This document shows, piece by piece, positions 6,122 to 46,608 of a stretch of DNA of 64,000 bases. The notes under the pieces are model-generated. The model made no database searches, was not told the DNA's origin, and saw only the letters and a list, made by a program, of their open reading frames with translations. Position numbers and translations under genes: made by a program. Within the stretch, counting starts at the first letter, position 1, and every line of letters begins with the position of its first letter. Origin of the DNA: Thermospira aquatica (GTDB lineage: Bacteria > Spirochaetota > Brevinematia > Brevinematales > Thermospiraceae); contig NZ_CP073355.1 in the NCBI RefSeq assembly GCF_023525255.1, positions 1,488,001 to 1,552,000 on the forward strand, read 5' to 3'.

Positions 6122-7509
6122 AACGCTTTTTAATAGGGGTTTTTGGATTGATGGTCACGTGGGGCATGTCGCTTTCCCCAGATCTTGAGGTGATACTGAC
6201 CACCGCCCTTCAAAACAATCCTACCCTGCGACAGTATCGACTTGATGCAGACATAGCGGAAGCTCAGTACCAGCAGGCCTGGGCGGATTTCTGGCTCCCG
6301 GATGTATCTGCGGGTGCTAGTTTTACCTACCTTGATCCTGATACGGTAGAGAGGGGAAAAATGAGTGTGCCTGAGTACACCATGACAAACCTGAATCTTC
6401 CCGTTATCGGCGGCGCTGGGGGTTATGTTCCTGTACCAACGATGGTTCCCAGTGGTTTTACCACGAATCAGACGGTGTTTGCGGATAACTACGGGATCCA
6501 GTTTCAGGTAGCTAAACCACTCTTCCTTGGCTTCAGACTGGCAAATGCTCTCAAGATTCGCGAACTTAACCTCAAGCTGGCTCGTCAAAAGTTTCAGGAT
6601 CAGCAACAGTCGATCAAAACCAGTGTGATCCAGTCATACTACAATATTCTTGTGCTCAAGGAAAACATTCGCCTCTCCAGGCAGTTAAGCGATGCGCTTC
6701 GAAAACGCTATGAATTTATGCAGGCGAATTACAGAGCTGGTCTTGTTTCCGATTATGATGTTCTTAAAATGGAGGTTCAGTACAAGAATACCCTCCCTTC
6801 TCTTCAAAAGCTGGAAACCACCTATCAGACAGTTCTTCAGCAGTTTTTCCAGCTGGTAGGGACCAACCTGGAACCGTCAGGACAGATTATGGATGCTACG
6901 AATCTCATCCTCTCTCGGACAAACGAAGCAGAGATTCTGGAATATGTGATGAGCAACAATATTAACCTTGTGCAGATTCGTGTAAGTAGAGAGATCCAGG
7001 AGTATACGTATCGTCTTCAGCAGGCAGACAGACTTCCGACCATCAATAGCTTTTTCACTCTCAAGTACGATTACAGGCTGGAAAAAAGCGGTGAAACGGA
7101 GAGAAAATGGATTCCCTCATGGACGATAGGGGTATCGGTAAGTGTCCCTCTTGATGAGTGGCTCCCCTTCTCTAAGAATTCAGCGCTTCTTAAAGAAACC
7201 AGACTCTCTCAGGAGAAAACAGACCTCGCGATAAAAACCCTGGAGGATCAGCTGAGTCTTCAGGTGAAAAGTCTCCTTGCCCAGCTTGCGGATCAAAAGC
7301 AGACTATAGAAGCACAGAGTCTCAATATGCGTCAGGCTCAAAGGGGGCTTGAGATGGCCAATGACCGTTATCGCCAGGGCGTGGTTTCCTCTCTCGATGT
7401 CACCGATGCAGAAGCCTCGTATAGCCAGGCACAGGTTAACTATCTTCAGAGTATTTATGATTATGTGAATACCGTGGTAAAACTCAAACAGTTACTTTAT
7501 GAATTGTAA
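6118..7509 (+). CDS. TolC-family outer-membrane efflux protein
   Basis: 463 residues with an N-terminal signal segment (MKRFLIGVFGLMVTWGMS). Two outer-membrane efflux repeats are visible: conserved helices in the first half (LDADIAEAQYQQAWADFWLP, YYNILVLKENIRLSRQL) and the second (MRQAQRGLEMANDRYRQGVV, SLDVTDAEASYSQAQVNYLQ). It would form the trimeric outer-membrane channel for the RND pump encoded two genes downstream. The start overlaps the tetR-family stop (ATGA) and has AAGGAGG just upstream. Confidence 0.92.
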   Translation: MKRFLIGVFGLMVTWGMSLSPDLEVILTTALQNNPTLRQYRLDADIAEAQYQQAWADFWLPDVSAGASFTYLDPDTVERGKMSVPEYTMTNLNLPVIGGAGGYVPVPTMVPSGFTTNQTVFADNYGIQFQVAKPLFLGFRLANALKIRELNLKLARQKFQDQQQSIKTSVIQSYYNILVLKENIRLSRQLSDALRKRYEFMQANYRAGLVSDYDVLKMEVQYKNTLPSLQKLETTYQTVLQQFFQLVGTNLEPSGQIMDATNLILSRTNEAEILEYVMSNNINLVQIRVSREIQEYTYRLQQADRLPTINSFFTLKYDYRLEKSGETERKWIPSWTIGVSVSVPLDEWLPFSKNSALLKETRLSQEKTDLAIKTLEDQLSLQVKSLLAQLADQKQTIEAQSLNMRQAQRGLEMANDRYRQGVVSSLDVTDAEASYSQAQVNYLQSIYDYVNTVVKLKQLLYEL

Positions 7510-7522
7510 TAAGGAGGATATT

Positions 7523-8434
7523 ATGAACCAGAAGAGAAGTTTTTTCTTCCAAATATTTGTGGTGATGAGTACGATACTCTTGATGGCGGGGCTTTTGAGT
7601 GGTTGTTTTTCTCGTGGCAAAAAAGCAAGAGAGGAAGAAGCCATCACTGTACTGATTCAAAAAGCCAAGGTACAATCTTTCCAGCAGTTTATTGATCTCA
7701 ATGGCCAGATTGCAGGGAGGAATGAGGTCAAGGTTTATGCCGATGTTTCCGGGAAAATTGCTCAGATCCTTGTAAAAGAAGGGAGTTATGTTTCCAAAGG
7801 ATCAGTGATAGCGTACATTGATAGAGCCCAGGTAGGTGCGGATTATGCCCTTGCTCCTGTCAAGGCGCCGATTAGTGGATATGTGACATCCGTGTCTGTC
7901 GTTTTGGGGCAGATGATTAGTCCTGGAACAGTACCTGTTGCCTCTATTGGATCTTTAACAGAGATGGATGTGATTATCTCGCTGCCCGAACGATTTGTTC
8001 GTGATGTAGAGATTGGACAAACAGTCTATCTTAAGGTGGCAGCGTATCCCGATGAACGTTTTACAGCCACAATTTATAGAAAAGATTTGGCTGTTGATCC
8101 CACCAGCCGTACTCTTACAGTTCGTGCTCAGATCCAGGATCCTCGTGGCAAACTTCTCTCCGGGATGTTTGCTGATGTTTCGATCCTTGTGCGTGAGTCG
8201 AGTAAAAGCATTGTGATTCCCTCAAGTGCTCTTGTAGAACTGGAAAACGGCAAGCAGGCAGTTTATGTTAACCAGGATAATGTGGCAAAAATTCGCCCTG
8301 TTTCGGTGGCTTTTGGATACAAAGACAAAGTGGCTATTCAGCAGGGGTTAAACCCTGGTGAAGAGGTAATTATTTATGGGAAAGAATTTCTCAAAGATGG
8401 AACACCCATCTATCCCGTCGAGGAAGAGAATTAG
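7523..8434 (+). CDS. RND efflux periplasmic adaptor lipoprotein
   Basis: 303 residues from the ATG at 7523, which follows AAGGAGG; an upstream in-frame ATG would overlap the TolC gene. It has an N-terminal lipoprotein signal with lipobox LLSGC. The membrane-fusion-protein core follows: a lipoyl/barrel-sandwich half-motif (GKIAQILVKEGSYVSKGSVIA), the return strand APISGYVTSVSVVLGQMI, a beta-barrel domain and a C-terminal segment ending in GLNPGEEVIIYG. The hairpin between the barrel-sandwich halves is very short, as in spirochaetal BesA-like adaptors. It links the inner-membrane RND pump to the TolC-like channel. Confidence 0.92.
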   Translation: MNQKRSFFFQIFVVMSTILLMAGLLSGCFSRGKKAREEEAITVLIQKAKVQSFQQFIDLNGQIAGRNEVKVYADVSGKIAQILVKEGSYVSKGSVIAYIDRAQVGADYALAPVKAPISGYVTSVSVVLGQMISPGTVPVASIGSLTEMDVIISLPERFVRDVEIGQTVYLKVAAYPDERFTATIYRKDLAVDPTSRTLTVRAQIQDPRGKLLSGMFADVSILVRESSKSIVIPSSALVELENGKQAVYVNQDNVAKIRPVSVAFGYKDKVAIQQGLNPGEEVIIYGKEFLKDGTPIYPVEEEN

Positions 8435-43856: not shown

Positions 43857-44603
43857 TTAAATATTTGAAGGGAAGATGCCTGCTTTTATTTGACGCTCGT
43901 GGAGGGCTTTGCAGAATCCTTGCCATGATTTTTCCTCGGTATCGATGGTACTGACGAGTGTACCGATAGCTTCAGGAAAATGGGCATCGGAAGAAGAAAG
44001 ACAGGGATAGTCCTCTTTATTGGGAATAGGAAAGGGAGAAAGCCAGTAGTATCTTGAGAGTTCAATGGCATCAAAGCGCGTTTTTTCCTGGGGAAGGAGA
44101 AAGCCAAGGTTATCCAGAAGGCCACTACCCGGTCTATCGATGTGGGAGGGGATGGCCAGACCATTGTGTTGATGAATGGTGTCTACAATCTCTTCCAGGG
44201 TATAGGAGCATGCCTGACCAAGATACACGGAAACCTCTCCCAGAATCACCTCGTTTTCGTCAACATAGACCTGATCACCGTATTTTTCCGCGTCATAAGG
44301 AAATTCTGTCAGAGAAGGGTATATCCATTGTCCCATATCCAGAGCCTCTTCGAGGTGTTCAAAGAGAGCCAGGATATGGACTTCTTCACGGGAGGTGATT
44401 TCAAGTCCCGGGAACACAACAATATTTGTGTTTTTTGCAAGGGAGAGAAGGGTTGGGCAATTTAAGGCAGTGTTATGATCGGTAAGCGCGATGATATCAA
44501 GATTTTTTGCCTGTGCCTCTTCGAGAATACGGCGAGGAGACATTTCCAGACTTCCACAGGGAGAAAGACAGGAATGGATATGGAGGTCAACTTTTAGGGT
44601 CAT
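43857..44603 (-). CDS. PHP-domain metal-dependent phosphoesterase
   Basis: 248 residues. PHP motifs are in order: DLHIHSCLSPCG, ALTDHNTALNCP, PGLEITSREEVHILALF, IPSHIDRP and the final SSDAH. It has no polymerase or histidinol-phosphatase extension, so it belongs to the stand-alone PHP group (YciV-like, acting on nucleotide or nucleic-acid phosphates). It is the last gene of the RseC-DRTGG operon and overlaps the preceding DRTGG gene by four bases. Confidence 0.88.
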   Translation of the reverse strand: MTLKVDLHIHSCLSPCGSLEMSPRRILEEAQAKNLDIIALTDHNTALNCPTLLSLAKNTNIVVFPGLEITSREEVHILALFEHLEEALDMGQWIYPSLTEFPYDAEKYGDQVYVDENEVILGEVSVYLGQACSYTLEEIVDTIHQHNGLAIPSHIDRPGSGLLDNLGFLLPQEKTRFDAIELSRYYWLSPFPIPNKEDYPCLSSSDAHFPEAIGTLVSTIDTEEKSWQGFCKALHERQIKAGIFPSNI

Positions 44604-44932
44604 GCGTTGAGGATTTTATGAACTTGATAAGAGGCCTGGTATTGATTGAGGCTGGTTCTCAGCAGGGGCAGAGACTCGTTATCAGCAGCCTGCACCATAT
44701 CCTCTGGGATTTCTCGATGGTTGCAAATGAGGATAGCTGATGCTCCTACCATGGTGGCCACAGCGATGGTGTTTTTGTGCGCCTGGATAGTGATGAGAAC
44801 ACATCCTTCGTCAGCGTTTGCCATCACATCACTGAGAAGATCAGAGGTGTAGCCTGTTGTCACTTCTCCATCAGCATAACTCGTGTTGATGATCTCAAAA
44901 TTCAGGGTTTTTGCCAGTTCGGTTACGGTCAT
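44600..44932 (-). CDS. DRTGG-domain protein (second of two)
   Basis: 110 residues, a single DRTGG-like domain: VTTGYTSDLLSDVMANADEG (residues 24-43), then CVLITIQAHKNTIAVATMVGASAILIC and LPLLRTSLNQYQA. It resembles the regulatory domain of phosphotransacetylases and of small proteins linked to Fe-Fe hydrogenase regulation. Ligand unknown. It overlaps both neighbours by four bases. Confidence 0.82.
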   Translation of the reverse strand: MTVTELAKTLNFEIINTSYADGEVTTGYTSDLLSDVMANADEGCVLITIQAHKNTIAVATMVGASAILICNHREIPEDMVQAADNESLPLLRTSLNQYQASYQVHKILNA

Positions 44933-45846
44933 GGTTTTCCCTCCAGATAGATGATTGATTGTATTTCTGTTCCTTTCCCAACCTCTGAAAAGATATGAAA
45001 TTCATCGGAGACACGTTTGGTGTTGGGGAGTCCCATGCCCGCTCCGAATCCAAGAGAACGTATCCATTCACTTGCTGTAGAAAAACCTTCTCTCAGGGCG
45101 GCCTCGATGTCGGCAATGCCAGGTCCATCATCTTTTGCAATGGTTTCGATTTTTTTATCGTCTATGACGAAACGCATCTTGCCTCCAACAGAGTGTATGA
45201 CAATATTCATTTCAAGTTCGTAAGAGGCGATGGAGGCGCGACGAATAATGGCAGGAGGGATTTTTTTATCTTTGAGGATCCTTTTGAGTTCAAACGAAGC
45301 CTGACCCGCATGTTCAAAGTCGTAACGTTTGATGATAAACTCCCGGGAGATTGCCTCTGAAACCTCAGATTTGTCCTTGATGCGGTTTTCGAGGGTTTTT
45401 ATCTCTTTGTTGAGTTCGGAGACAAGGGCAGAAAGGATATCCCGGCTGGTAAGTATTCCCACGAGTTTTTTGTCCCTGTCGATGACGGGAAAACGCCGAT
45501 ACGAAAACTTGTTAAAAAACGAAAGGGCAAAGGAGAGGGGCATGTCATCTTCGAGGACAATGAGATTGGTTACCATGTGGTCTTTGACTTTGTTTTCAAT
45601 ATACCCACCATCCAGGGCGTTGATGATATCGTTGACGGAAACAATCCCGACGAGCTGTTGTCCTTCAACGATGGGTACTCCTGAGATCTTTTTGTCTTTC
45701 ATGATGTGCTGTACGGTGCGAAGACTATCCTCTGGAGTGGCCGTGTAGATTTTTTTCTGCATGGCGTCTCGTACCTTGAGGCGGAGAAGAATCTCCATCA
45801 CGGCATTGGCAGATTTTTCGGTATTGATGGGGATAGGATTTTTCAT
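44929..45846 (-). CDS. CBS-pair protein with anti-sigma-type ATPase domain
   Basis: 305 residues from the ATG at 45846, which overlaps the upstream stop (ATGA). Residues 25-140 are a CBS pair (MQKKIYTATPEDSLRTVQHI, then MVTNLIVLEDDMPLSFALSF). A short coiled coil leads into a GHKL ATPase like RsbW/RsbT: ELEMNIVIHSVGG, KDDGPGI and FGAGMGLPNTKRVSDEF. No histidine phosphorylation box is seen. It would couple an adenosyl-ligand signal to a kinase or anti-sigma-like output. No sigma factor or SpoIIE-type phosphatase is in the window. Confidence 0.85.
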   Translation of the reverse strand: MKNPIPINTEKSANAVMEILLRLKVRDAMQKKIYTATPEDSLRTVQHIMKDKKISGVPIVEGQQLVGIVSVNDIINALDGGYIENKVKDHMVTNLIVLEDDMPLSFALSFFNKFSYRRFPVIDRDKKLVGILTSRDILSALVSELNKEIKTLENRIKDKSEVSEAISREFIIKRYDFEHAGQASFELKRILKDKKIPPAIIRRASIASYELEMNIVIHSVGGKMRFVIDDKKIETIAKDDGPGIADIEAALREGFSTASEWIRSLGFGAGMGLPNTKRVSDEFHIFSEVGKGTEIQSIIYLEGKP

Positions 45847-46196
45847 TGACTTCTCCGTGTAACAGGAAAAATCTCCCCCAGAAGCACGCATGTCTCATAC
45901 ATGGGGTAGGCTGTTCTCAGGAGATTAATGTTGTGCTCGTGGCAAAGTTCAAGAAAATCGGAAGGGACTTGTTTTGCATTGGTGACGAGAATGGTGGGAG
46001 CTCCCACCATGTACGCGGTGCGTACCACCTGGGAGTTTGCAAGGTTACATACAAGCAGGAAATCTTCAATTTCAGTTGTAAGCACATCACTCATGAGTCC
46101 AGAGGCCACCACCCCCTTGAGAGGGATGGTGTTTGCCTCATGGAGTATTTCACATTGTAATGTTTTCTGGATATCGTGTATAGTGGCTGATGTCAT
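45843..46196 (-). CDS. DRTGG-domain protein (first of two)
   Basis: 117 residues from the ATG at 46196, which has GGAGGTG upstream. VVASGLMSDVLTTEIEDFLL matches the DRTGG pattern, followed by VRTAYMVGAPTILVTNAKQV and INLLRTAYPMYETC. It is paralogous to the protein at 44600-44932; the two flank the CBS-ATPase gene. Its start lies inside the rseC-like gene, a 47-base overlap. Confidence 0.82.
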   Translation of the reverse strand: MTSATIHDIQKTLQCEILHEANTIPLKGVVASGLMSDVLTTEIEDFLLVCNLANSQVVRTAYMVGAPTILVTNAKQVPSDFLELCHEHNINLLRTAYPMYETCVLLGEIFPVTRRSQ

Positions 46197-46608
46197 CAAA
46201 CACCTCCGCAACACTTTCTTTTGGTATTATACGAAATCGTCGTAGAATTCTTGGGCTAAGACAACGCAAAATGCAAAAATACATACCTATAACAGAGAGG
46301 GAGACAAGAACAGCCCAGGGAGTCGGCATCCATTGATGAAGTAATGCACTTCCTCCAATGAGTAAGAGGCTTGGCAAAAGAAAAAGAAGTGTGGCAATTT
46401 CTATAAGAACAGATTCTCGTACCTCTACCCATACCTCTTCGCCTACCTTCCAGGTGTTTTTGGTCCAGATCGTGAGCGTTCGTTCACCTGTCTCTATGTG
46501 ACAATGTCCGTGAAGGCTACATTGGTTGCATGAGGAGGCTGCATGCTCCAGAATATCAACCACAATATGGTCGGGATAGCATTGGCGGATTTTTCCAAGC
46601 TCTTTCAT
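46150..46608 (-). CDS. RseC/MucC-like redox membrane protein
   Basis: 152 residues. The N-terminal part has the RseC cysteine cluster SSCNQCSLHGHCHI (near residues 30-43), then a beta-rich KVGEEVWVEV segment, two membrane helices (residues 70-112) and a cytosolic tail. In E. coli the family takes part in reduction of SoxR; in anaerobes it accompanies Rnf. Here it leads a signalling operon, suggesting redox input. AAGGAGG precedes the start. Confidence 0.85.
   Translation of the reverse strand: MKELGKIRQCYPDHIVVDILEHAASSCNQCSLHGHCHIETGERTLTIWTKNTWKVGEEVWVEVRESVLIEIATLLFLLPSLLLIGGSALLHQWMPTPWAVLVSLSVIGMYFCILRCLSPRILRRFRIIPKESVAEVFDDISHYTRYPENITM

Follow-up and report, generated by a model that had tools for sequence, protein, structure and literature searches.

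A five-gene operon of Thermospira aquatica, at positions 43,857 to 46,608 of the 64,000-nucleotide stretch analyzed here (contig NZ_CP073355.1, positions 1,488,001 to 1,552,000; the window), contains a gene set, DRTGG1-HATPase-DRTGG2-PHP, that is a real unit in several phyla. Its central protein joins a pair of CBS domains to a GHKL-type ATPase (CBS-HATPase), flanked by two DRTGG proteins and followed by a PHP-family phosphoesterase. We read the operon as a widespread signalling module in its CBS-input form, in which an adenylate-responsive kinase tunes HydABC, and give this reading an even chance of being correct. The module would serve Bfu complexes, the family of electron-bifurcating NADH/ferredoxin enzymes whose hydrogenase member is HydABC. 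The Bfu family is described, in the part of the source available to us, as a NuoE/NuoF-type core with many third partners (PMC9304861). In order of transcription the genes are:

46150-46608, minus strand: RseC/MucC-like membrane protein, 152 amino acids (aa); Pfam RseC_MucC 1.8e-19
45843-46196, minus strand: DRTGG1, the upstream DRTGG protein, 117 aa; weak Pfam matches to DRTGG (0.001) and Hpr_kinase_N (8e-4)
44929-45846, minus strand: CBS-CBS-HATPase, 305 aa; Pfam CBS 8.5e-29, HATPase_c 1.9e-5
44600-44932, minus strand: DRTGG2, the downstream DRTGG protein, 110 aa; Pfam DRTGG 5.5e-6
43857-44603, minus strand: PHP-family phosphoesterase with PHP_C, 248 aa; Pfam PHP 8.8e-8, PHP_C 1.7e-9

All five open reading frames lie on the minus strand where a preliminary description had placed them, and the last four are joined by 4-nucleotide overlaps (DRTGG1/CBS-HATPase, CBS-HATPase/DRTGG2, DRTGG2/PHP), with a 47-nucleotide overlap between RseC and DRTGG1. 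Frames were called with a simple script, and some lengths contain additional upstream codons; the corrected start of DRTGG1 is 46196, and the start of CBS-HATPase is most likely 45846, not 45891. Pfam supports each of the domain assignments first made from the sequence alone (RseC, DRTGG, CBS-GHKL and PHP), that of DRTGG1 weakly, and the two DRTGG proteins flanking the CBS-GHKL protein are indeed paralogs (E 2e-12 and 4e-12 for DRTGG1/DRTGG2). As had also been described, neither a hydrogenase nor a SpoIIE phosphatase gives a profile match within the window.

The identical five-gene set is present in 3 of 3 searched genomes of the window's genus. Among the 98 CBS-type loci with enough flanking sequence, the upstream DRTGG gene was found at 68, the downstream DRTGG gene at 83 and the downstream PHP gene at 80, with all three partners at 54, so that neighbourhood comparison bears out the proposal that the gene set is conserved as a unit. 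These counts come from searches for CBS-HATPase in 41 genomes close to the window, for its HATPase domain within the phylum (71 of 296 genomes matched), and for the whole protein among GTDB contigs, where the best 80 of 506 confirmed loci were kept; the closest named relatives of CBS-HATPase are Spirochaetota. The genes surrounding 164 loci were then compared with profiles made from proteins of the window and its relatives. Removal of 7 matches at 98% identity or more from these 164 left 157 HATPases (loci L001-L034 are outside this set), comprising 119 fused to CBS domains, 25 alone and 13 fused to DRTGG; the query used to collect the named loci contained CBS domains, which favours CBS forms, and CBS status is unsure for the solo cases L116 and L121, which begin at contig ends, and for L137, which looks frame-split.

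The connection to electron-bifurcating enzymes comes from neighbouring genes. A NuoF-type gene (BfuB) lies inside the fetched locus in 51 of the 119 CBS-type loci, where the third subunit, assigned by profile, is HydA in 15, a molybdopterin enzyme in 10, a ferredoxin-only or Pyr_redox protein in 12, and unassigned in 14. Because the third subunit varies (HydA in 15, another oxidoreductase in 22), the module is tied more to the NuoE/NuoF bifurcating core than to hydrogenase. The preliminary description had noted that such genes occur near [FeFe] hydrogenases; that linkage exists in relatives, but as a statement about the module it is too narrow, since 22 of the 51 linked CBS loci have a non-hydrogenase partner by profile. 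We therefore rejected strict hydrogenase linkage, given partner subunits with molybdopterin, Pyr_redox or ferredoxin-only domains. In an even draw across the phylum, 14 of 50 loci were NuoF-linked against about 1.6% expected per locus, a rough expectation based on 16 kb, about 3 Complex1_51K copies in 3 Mb and loci taken as independent. At the level of whole genomes, uncorrected for kinship, a strong HydA match was found in 52 of 71 genomes with the HATPase versus 76 of 225 without it, the split between strong and weak being placed at a gap in E-values and 34 genomes with weak matches being counted as lacking HydA. Of the 52 genomes that have both genes, at least 12 place HydA no more than 10 kb from the HATPase (tables read by eye), and linkage of HydA or NuoF by coordinate is in general a lower bound. 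The module is divergent from hydC-hydD-hydB-hydA in several spirochaetes. 'HydA' flags on loci of the HydS class, introduced below, represent HydS matching the HydA profile and were ignored.

The preliminary description had counted a genome without any hydrogenase genes, together with a lack of redox response, against its redox reading; the host genome, a single contig of 2.5 Mb, does encode HydABC. One hydABC cluster at about 260 kb runs hydC, a 188-aa GHKL-type protein, hydD, hydB and hydA. Complex1_51K has two matches in the host genome, RnfC at 616 kb and HydB, which carries the domain; because only one such core is present, HydABC would be the target if the module serves a Bfu complex in this host. 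DRTGG1 and DRTGG2 are each present once. A search with PF02906 over the host genome returned only HydA and a chemoreceptor with an H-domain, with no HydS and no match in the window. The small GHKL-type protein between hydC and hydD (L033, 12040-12606) is a second of this kind in the genome, and a protein in the same hyd setting in L099 matches HATPase_c at 2.9e-13.

Catalytic residues of the central protein are conserved. The CBS pair spans approximately residues 25-140 and the SpoIIAB-like GHKL ATPase approximately 165-305. The HATPase_c match (1.9e-5) is slightly below the Pfam cut-off. E210, N214, D239, G241, G243, G266, G268, G270, G272 and N275 are identical in 118 of 118 CBS-type homologues, all of which keep boxes G1 and G2 as well as the Glu and Asn of the N-box. 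The closest solved sequence relative is SpoIIAB (E 8.5e-9), with which the N-box Glu and Asn align. Membership of the GHKL family, the N-box residues and the G-boxes are thus shared with the SpoIIAB/RsbW kinases; by contrast, the protein here has a fused CBS pair and DRTGG partners, and no sigma or STAS partner is seen in the operon. The motif GxxS/TxxD, which we take to be the adenosine-type ribose-phosphate motif of CBS domains, occurs in CBS1 of 109, CBS2 of 103 and both domains of 95 of the 118 homologues counted (one of the 119 CBS-type proteins was dropped for length). The window protein carries both, as GIVSVND and GILTSRD, and the earlier suggestion of a CBS-bound nucleotide is accordingly plausible from motif content; we predict that the CBS pair is an adenylate sensor. 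Control of CBS domains by adenylates has precedent, since CBS-pyrophosphatases respond to AMP, ADP, ATP and Ap4A: in the portion of the source available, AMP and ADP inhibit and ATP or ApnA activate via the CBS domains, with little role given to DRTGG (PMC11172384). The regulatory region of those enzymes shares its CBS and DRTGG domain types with the operon, and the DRTGG2 structure model matches 3l2b and 3l31. Here, however, DRTGG and CBS are on separate proteins, and DHH/DHHA2 is absent from a Pfam scan of the five proteins.

A sister branch of the same ATPase has a different companion. Many HATPases that are not fused to CBS have as their next gene one whose product, about 416-470 aa long, combines two Fer4 sites with an H-domain and a C-terminal iron-sulfur (FeS) motif, the layout given for group D HydS in the available part of PMC13104023. 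HydS adjoins or is fused to 20 of 25 solo HATPases (one a fusion), 2 of 13 DRTGG-fused and 0 of 119 CBS-fused HATPases, or 22 of the 38 non-CBS proteins. Two HATPases occur in 13 of the 71 genomes, and ten genomes have one kinase of each type. In these ten, DRTGG2 is single and located at the CBS locus in 10/10; DRTGG1, single in 9/10, is at the HydS locus in 7 and at the CBS locus in 3. Because DRTGG1 is single in nine and DRTGG2 in all ten, the kinases appear to share the DRTGG pair, and gene content suggests that two inputs may converge on one output pair. The sole exception to single copy is an additional DRTGG1-like gene that lies outside both module loci (G199:C1:443222-443548). Natural fusions of DRTGG1 to HATPase (L118, L125), of HATPase to DRTGG (11 loci) and of HATPase to HydS (L164, where 6526-8220 encodes a HATPase and a HydS-like H-domain in one 564-aa protein) point to probable direct contact of the HATPase with the DRTGG and HydS proteins. 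An HATPase_C domain within sensory hydrogenases of Hydrogenedentota has already been published, as the accessible text of PMC11406978 indicates.

The nearest described arrangement is the group D (M2e) HydS gene set of Thermoanaerobacter mathranii, in which a histidine kinase-like ATPase adjoins HydS upstream of a bifurcating HydABC and, in the part of the paper available, the signal path is posed as a question (PMC8163306, Land et al.). In the loci collected here, the ATPase next to HydS belongs to the family of the window protein and has DRTGG and PHP neighbours. The T. aquatica genome differs in having no HydS and a CBS pair fused to the ATPase instead, and the available text of that paper makes no mention of DRTGG, PHP or CBS.

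From these elements we infer a working order that runs from ligand to target. Binding of an adenylate by the CBS pair would set the activity of the fused SpoIIAB-like ATPase, which may act on both DRTGG proteins as a Ser/Thr kinase or, alternatively, as a nucleotide-switched binding protein; the PHP enzyme would undo the modification or remove a signal nucleotide; and the state of the DRTGG pair would in turn govern the bifurcating complex, in this host HydABC, at the level of activity, assembly or expression. The ATPase of the sister branch would be driven by an H2-sensing HydS in place of the CBS domains. A more general claim, which we advance tentatively and with more doubt than confidence, is that one architecture governs Bfu enzymes across bacteria: a SpoIIAB-like kinase whose input is either energy charge (CBS) or H2 (HydS), both kinases acting on a shared DRTGG pair where they co-occur, so that ATP status and H2 pressure are integrated. 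If true, cells would in this way steer electrons between NADH, ferredoxin and a third substrate, and the question of how the HydS signal is passed on would have an answer.

Several observations weigh against this reading. The fetched stretch contains no Bfu gene in 62 of the 119 CBS loci, in some cases through contig ends, and in the host genome itself 1.27 Mb separate the operon from hydABC. Of the 118 homologues, 23 lack at least one of the two CBS motifs. Because 19 of the 71 HATPase genomes have no strong HydA match and HydA occurs in 76 others that lack the module, the module is not obligatory. Furthermore, the HATPase tree, which rests on 140 columns, contains approximately one main split, with 6 changes of CBS and 4 of HydS, and a sign test on 5 independent CBS/HydS pairs (starred branches) gives p 1. 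Because the tree shows approximately one split, the mutual exclusivity of CBS and HydS is a single historical difference and provides no repeated evidence; with the independent-pair test not significant, we rejected the idea that CBS and HydS are repeatedly swapped modules.

Linkage that follows the NuoE/NuoF core whatever the third subunit is also what would be expected if the set were an assembly or repair factor of Bfu complexes, with a chaperone-like GHKL protein and with DRTGG and PHP proteins aiding cofactor or subunit handling, and no signalling involved; the second small GHKL-type protein (188 aa) within the hyd cluster points the same way. We nevertheless consider this unlikely, because the CBS pairs and the HydS sister branch resemble sensory inputs, and because the 76 genomes with HydA and no module imply that it is not generally needed for assembly.

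The DRTGG proteins bear on a second alternative, a transcriptional partner-switch in which the ATPase is an anti-sigma kinase, the DRTGG proteins replace STAS antagonists and a SpoIIE phosphatase encoded elsewhere completes the switch. DRTGG1 is a putative DRTGG domain on the grounds of paralogy and a Pfam match (0.001) below the cut-off; in its alignment S36, Q56, T60 and A61 are invariant, and a near-invariant Ser sits in a (D/G)LMSDVL motif in 99% of 104 aligned homologues. For DRTGG2 the Pfam match (5.5e-6) is above the cut-off, and D31, S34, T48 and N54 are invariant in alignments of both 58 and 100 rows. Its structure model (predicted local distance difference test, pLDDT, 97.7) has 2ioj as best match (TMq 0.85) and also matches the DRTGG region of CBS-pyrophosphatase (3l2b/3l31) and the N-domains of HPr kinase. 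In this predicted model the invariant residues are in or beside the loops following strands 26-29 and 44-48, which suggests that the four may form one site. SpoIIAB as the closest solved relative and 16 SpoIIE-domain matches in the host genome speak for a partner-switch. Against it, the DRTGG2 model matches DRTGG and HPr kinase N-domain structures, with no STAS protein among the 50 matches listed; the constant neighbour is PHP, not SpoIIE; and no gene for a sigma factor or a DNA-binding protein stood out as a regular neighbour, although no search aimed at STAS or sigma families was made. We regard a partner-switch as distinctly unlikely. The number of SpoIIE-domain matches, none of them in the window, looks large for a 2.5 Mb genome.

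The PHP enzyme is strongly conserved, with H8, H10, D42, H43, E68, H154, D206 and H208 at 100% and H76 at 98% of 98 homologues; we take these His, Asp and Glu residues to be the PHP metal ligands. Cys16 is also invariant. The model (pLDDT 96.0) is nearest in fold to the EndoQ PHP domain, TM0559 and RNase AM, and AMP-bound 2yb1 is also among the nucleic-acid or nucleotide PHP enzymes near it, fold neighbours that do not fix the substrate. A role in anti-phage defence was considered and rejected: Ppl, TrlF and PDC-M49A gave partial matches to the PHP domain, far below the NCBIfam cut-offs (NCBIfam, PADLOC). The same neighbours (EndoQ, RNase AM, 2yb1) would suit a stand-alone nucleotide or stress operon whose PHP enzyme hydrolyses a nucleotide sensed by the remaining proteins, with linkage to hydrogenase incidental, as would the HATPase-DRTGG variants, which have a NuoF gene in 0 of 11 loci. 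NuoF linkage far above even our rough expectation makes so self-contained an operon improbable.

That CBS-HATPase and the DRTGG proteins relay metabolic state to chemoreceptors for energy taxis is very unlikely: a chemoreceptor gene does lie between CBS-HATPase and DRTGG2 in L037, L039 and L040 (related spirochaetes) and adjoins in L182, and a che operon of the host encodes a chemoreceptor with an H-domain, but such adjacency is limited to 4 of the 98 CBS loci with flank, three from one genus. The host chemoreceptor (L034, 7080-9302, at about 2.434 Mb) is a 740-aa protein with Fer4, an [FeFe]-hydrogenase H-domain, a C-terminal FeS motif and a methyl-accepting chemotaxis protein domain; its cluster cysteines are apparently kept, CheB and CheR genes adjoin, and it is a candidate H2-sensing chemoreceptor judging from its domains. 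HydDB, in the part available, lists sensory hydrogenases of groups C1-C3 that are linked to kinases, chemotaxis or phosphatases (PMC5037454). The proposed signalling module has in common with these a putative tie of H2 sensing to kinase, chemoreceptor or phosphatase signalling; the operon differs in having no H-domain and no SpoIIE, and its PHP protein is an unrelated class of enzyme.

Work on sensory hydrogenases has dealt with the purified enzymes, their signalling partners remaining obscure, and the available text on group D leaves the signal path open (PMC8163306). The module names partners: a SpoIIAB-like ATPase, two DRTGG proteins and a PHP enzyme. It also shows that the H2 sensor has an equivalent form with a predicted sensor of adenylates, widens the connection beyond hydrogenases to further bifurcating enzymes, and yields a testable proposal for the way in which anaerobes adjust electron bifurcation to their energy state. 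In the literature we consulted, mainly open-access papers, we found neither the CBS form nor the DRTGG pair described. A search for DRTGG together with hydrogenase gave a match that, in its accessible part, concerns a lactate gene; term searches found no DRTGG in PMC9304861, PMC6288185 or PMC11406978, and no PHP, CBS or kinase in the main text of the Bfu paper (PMC9304861).

RseC is the member of the operon that does not belong to the conserved module, contrary to its inclusion in the unit at first. The RseC_MucC match is secure (70.4 bits against a cut-off of 24.4), and the protein has a C-x2-C-x5-C cysteine cluster and two membrane spans, judged by eye. RseC neighbours gave 5 matches in 164 loci, two of them on one contig; the gene is beside the module in 3/3 genomes of the window's genus and in one other lineage (L076, on the same contig as L145). 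We therefore rejected RseC as a core member; it is a genus-level addition to the module, and in this genus it might tie the set to the redox state of the membrane.

Other departures from the common gene order were noted. In a variant at L181, L184-L186, L188-L190 and L194-L197, HATPase and DRTGG are fused, DRTGG1 is upstream and neither PHP nor NuoF is in the locus; several such loci have a CBS gene upstream, which in L184 is an MgtE transporter. Between DRTGG1 and CBS-HATPase, both L054 and L134 have a further gene; its product, about 280-310 aa long, begins with a DLDDTLL segment and presumably resembles a HAD-type hydrolase at this end. Finally, a scan for promoters and terminators was uninformative, with 9 promoter-like sites against 5.4 expected and 6 terminator-like sites against 3.3 expected.

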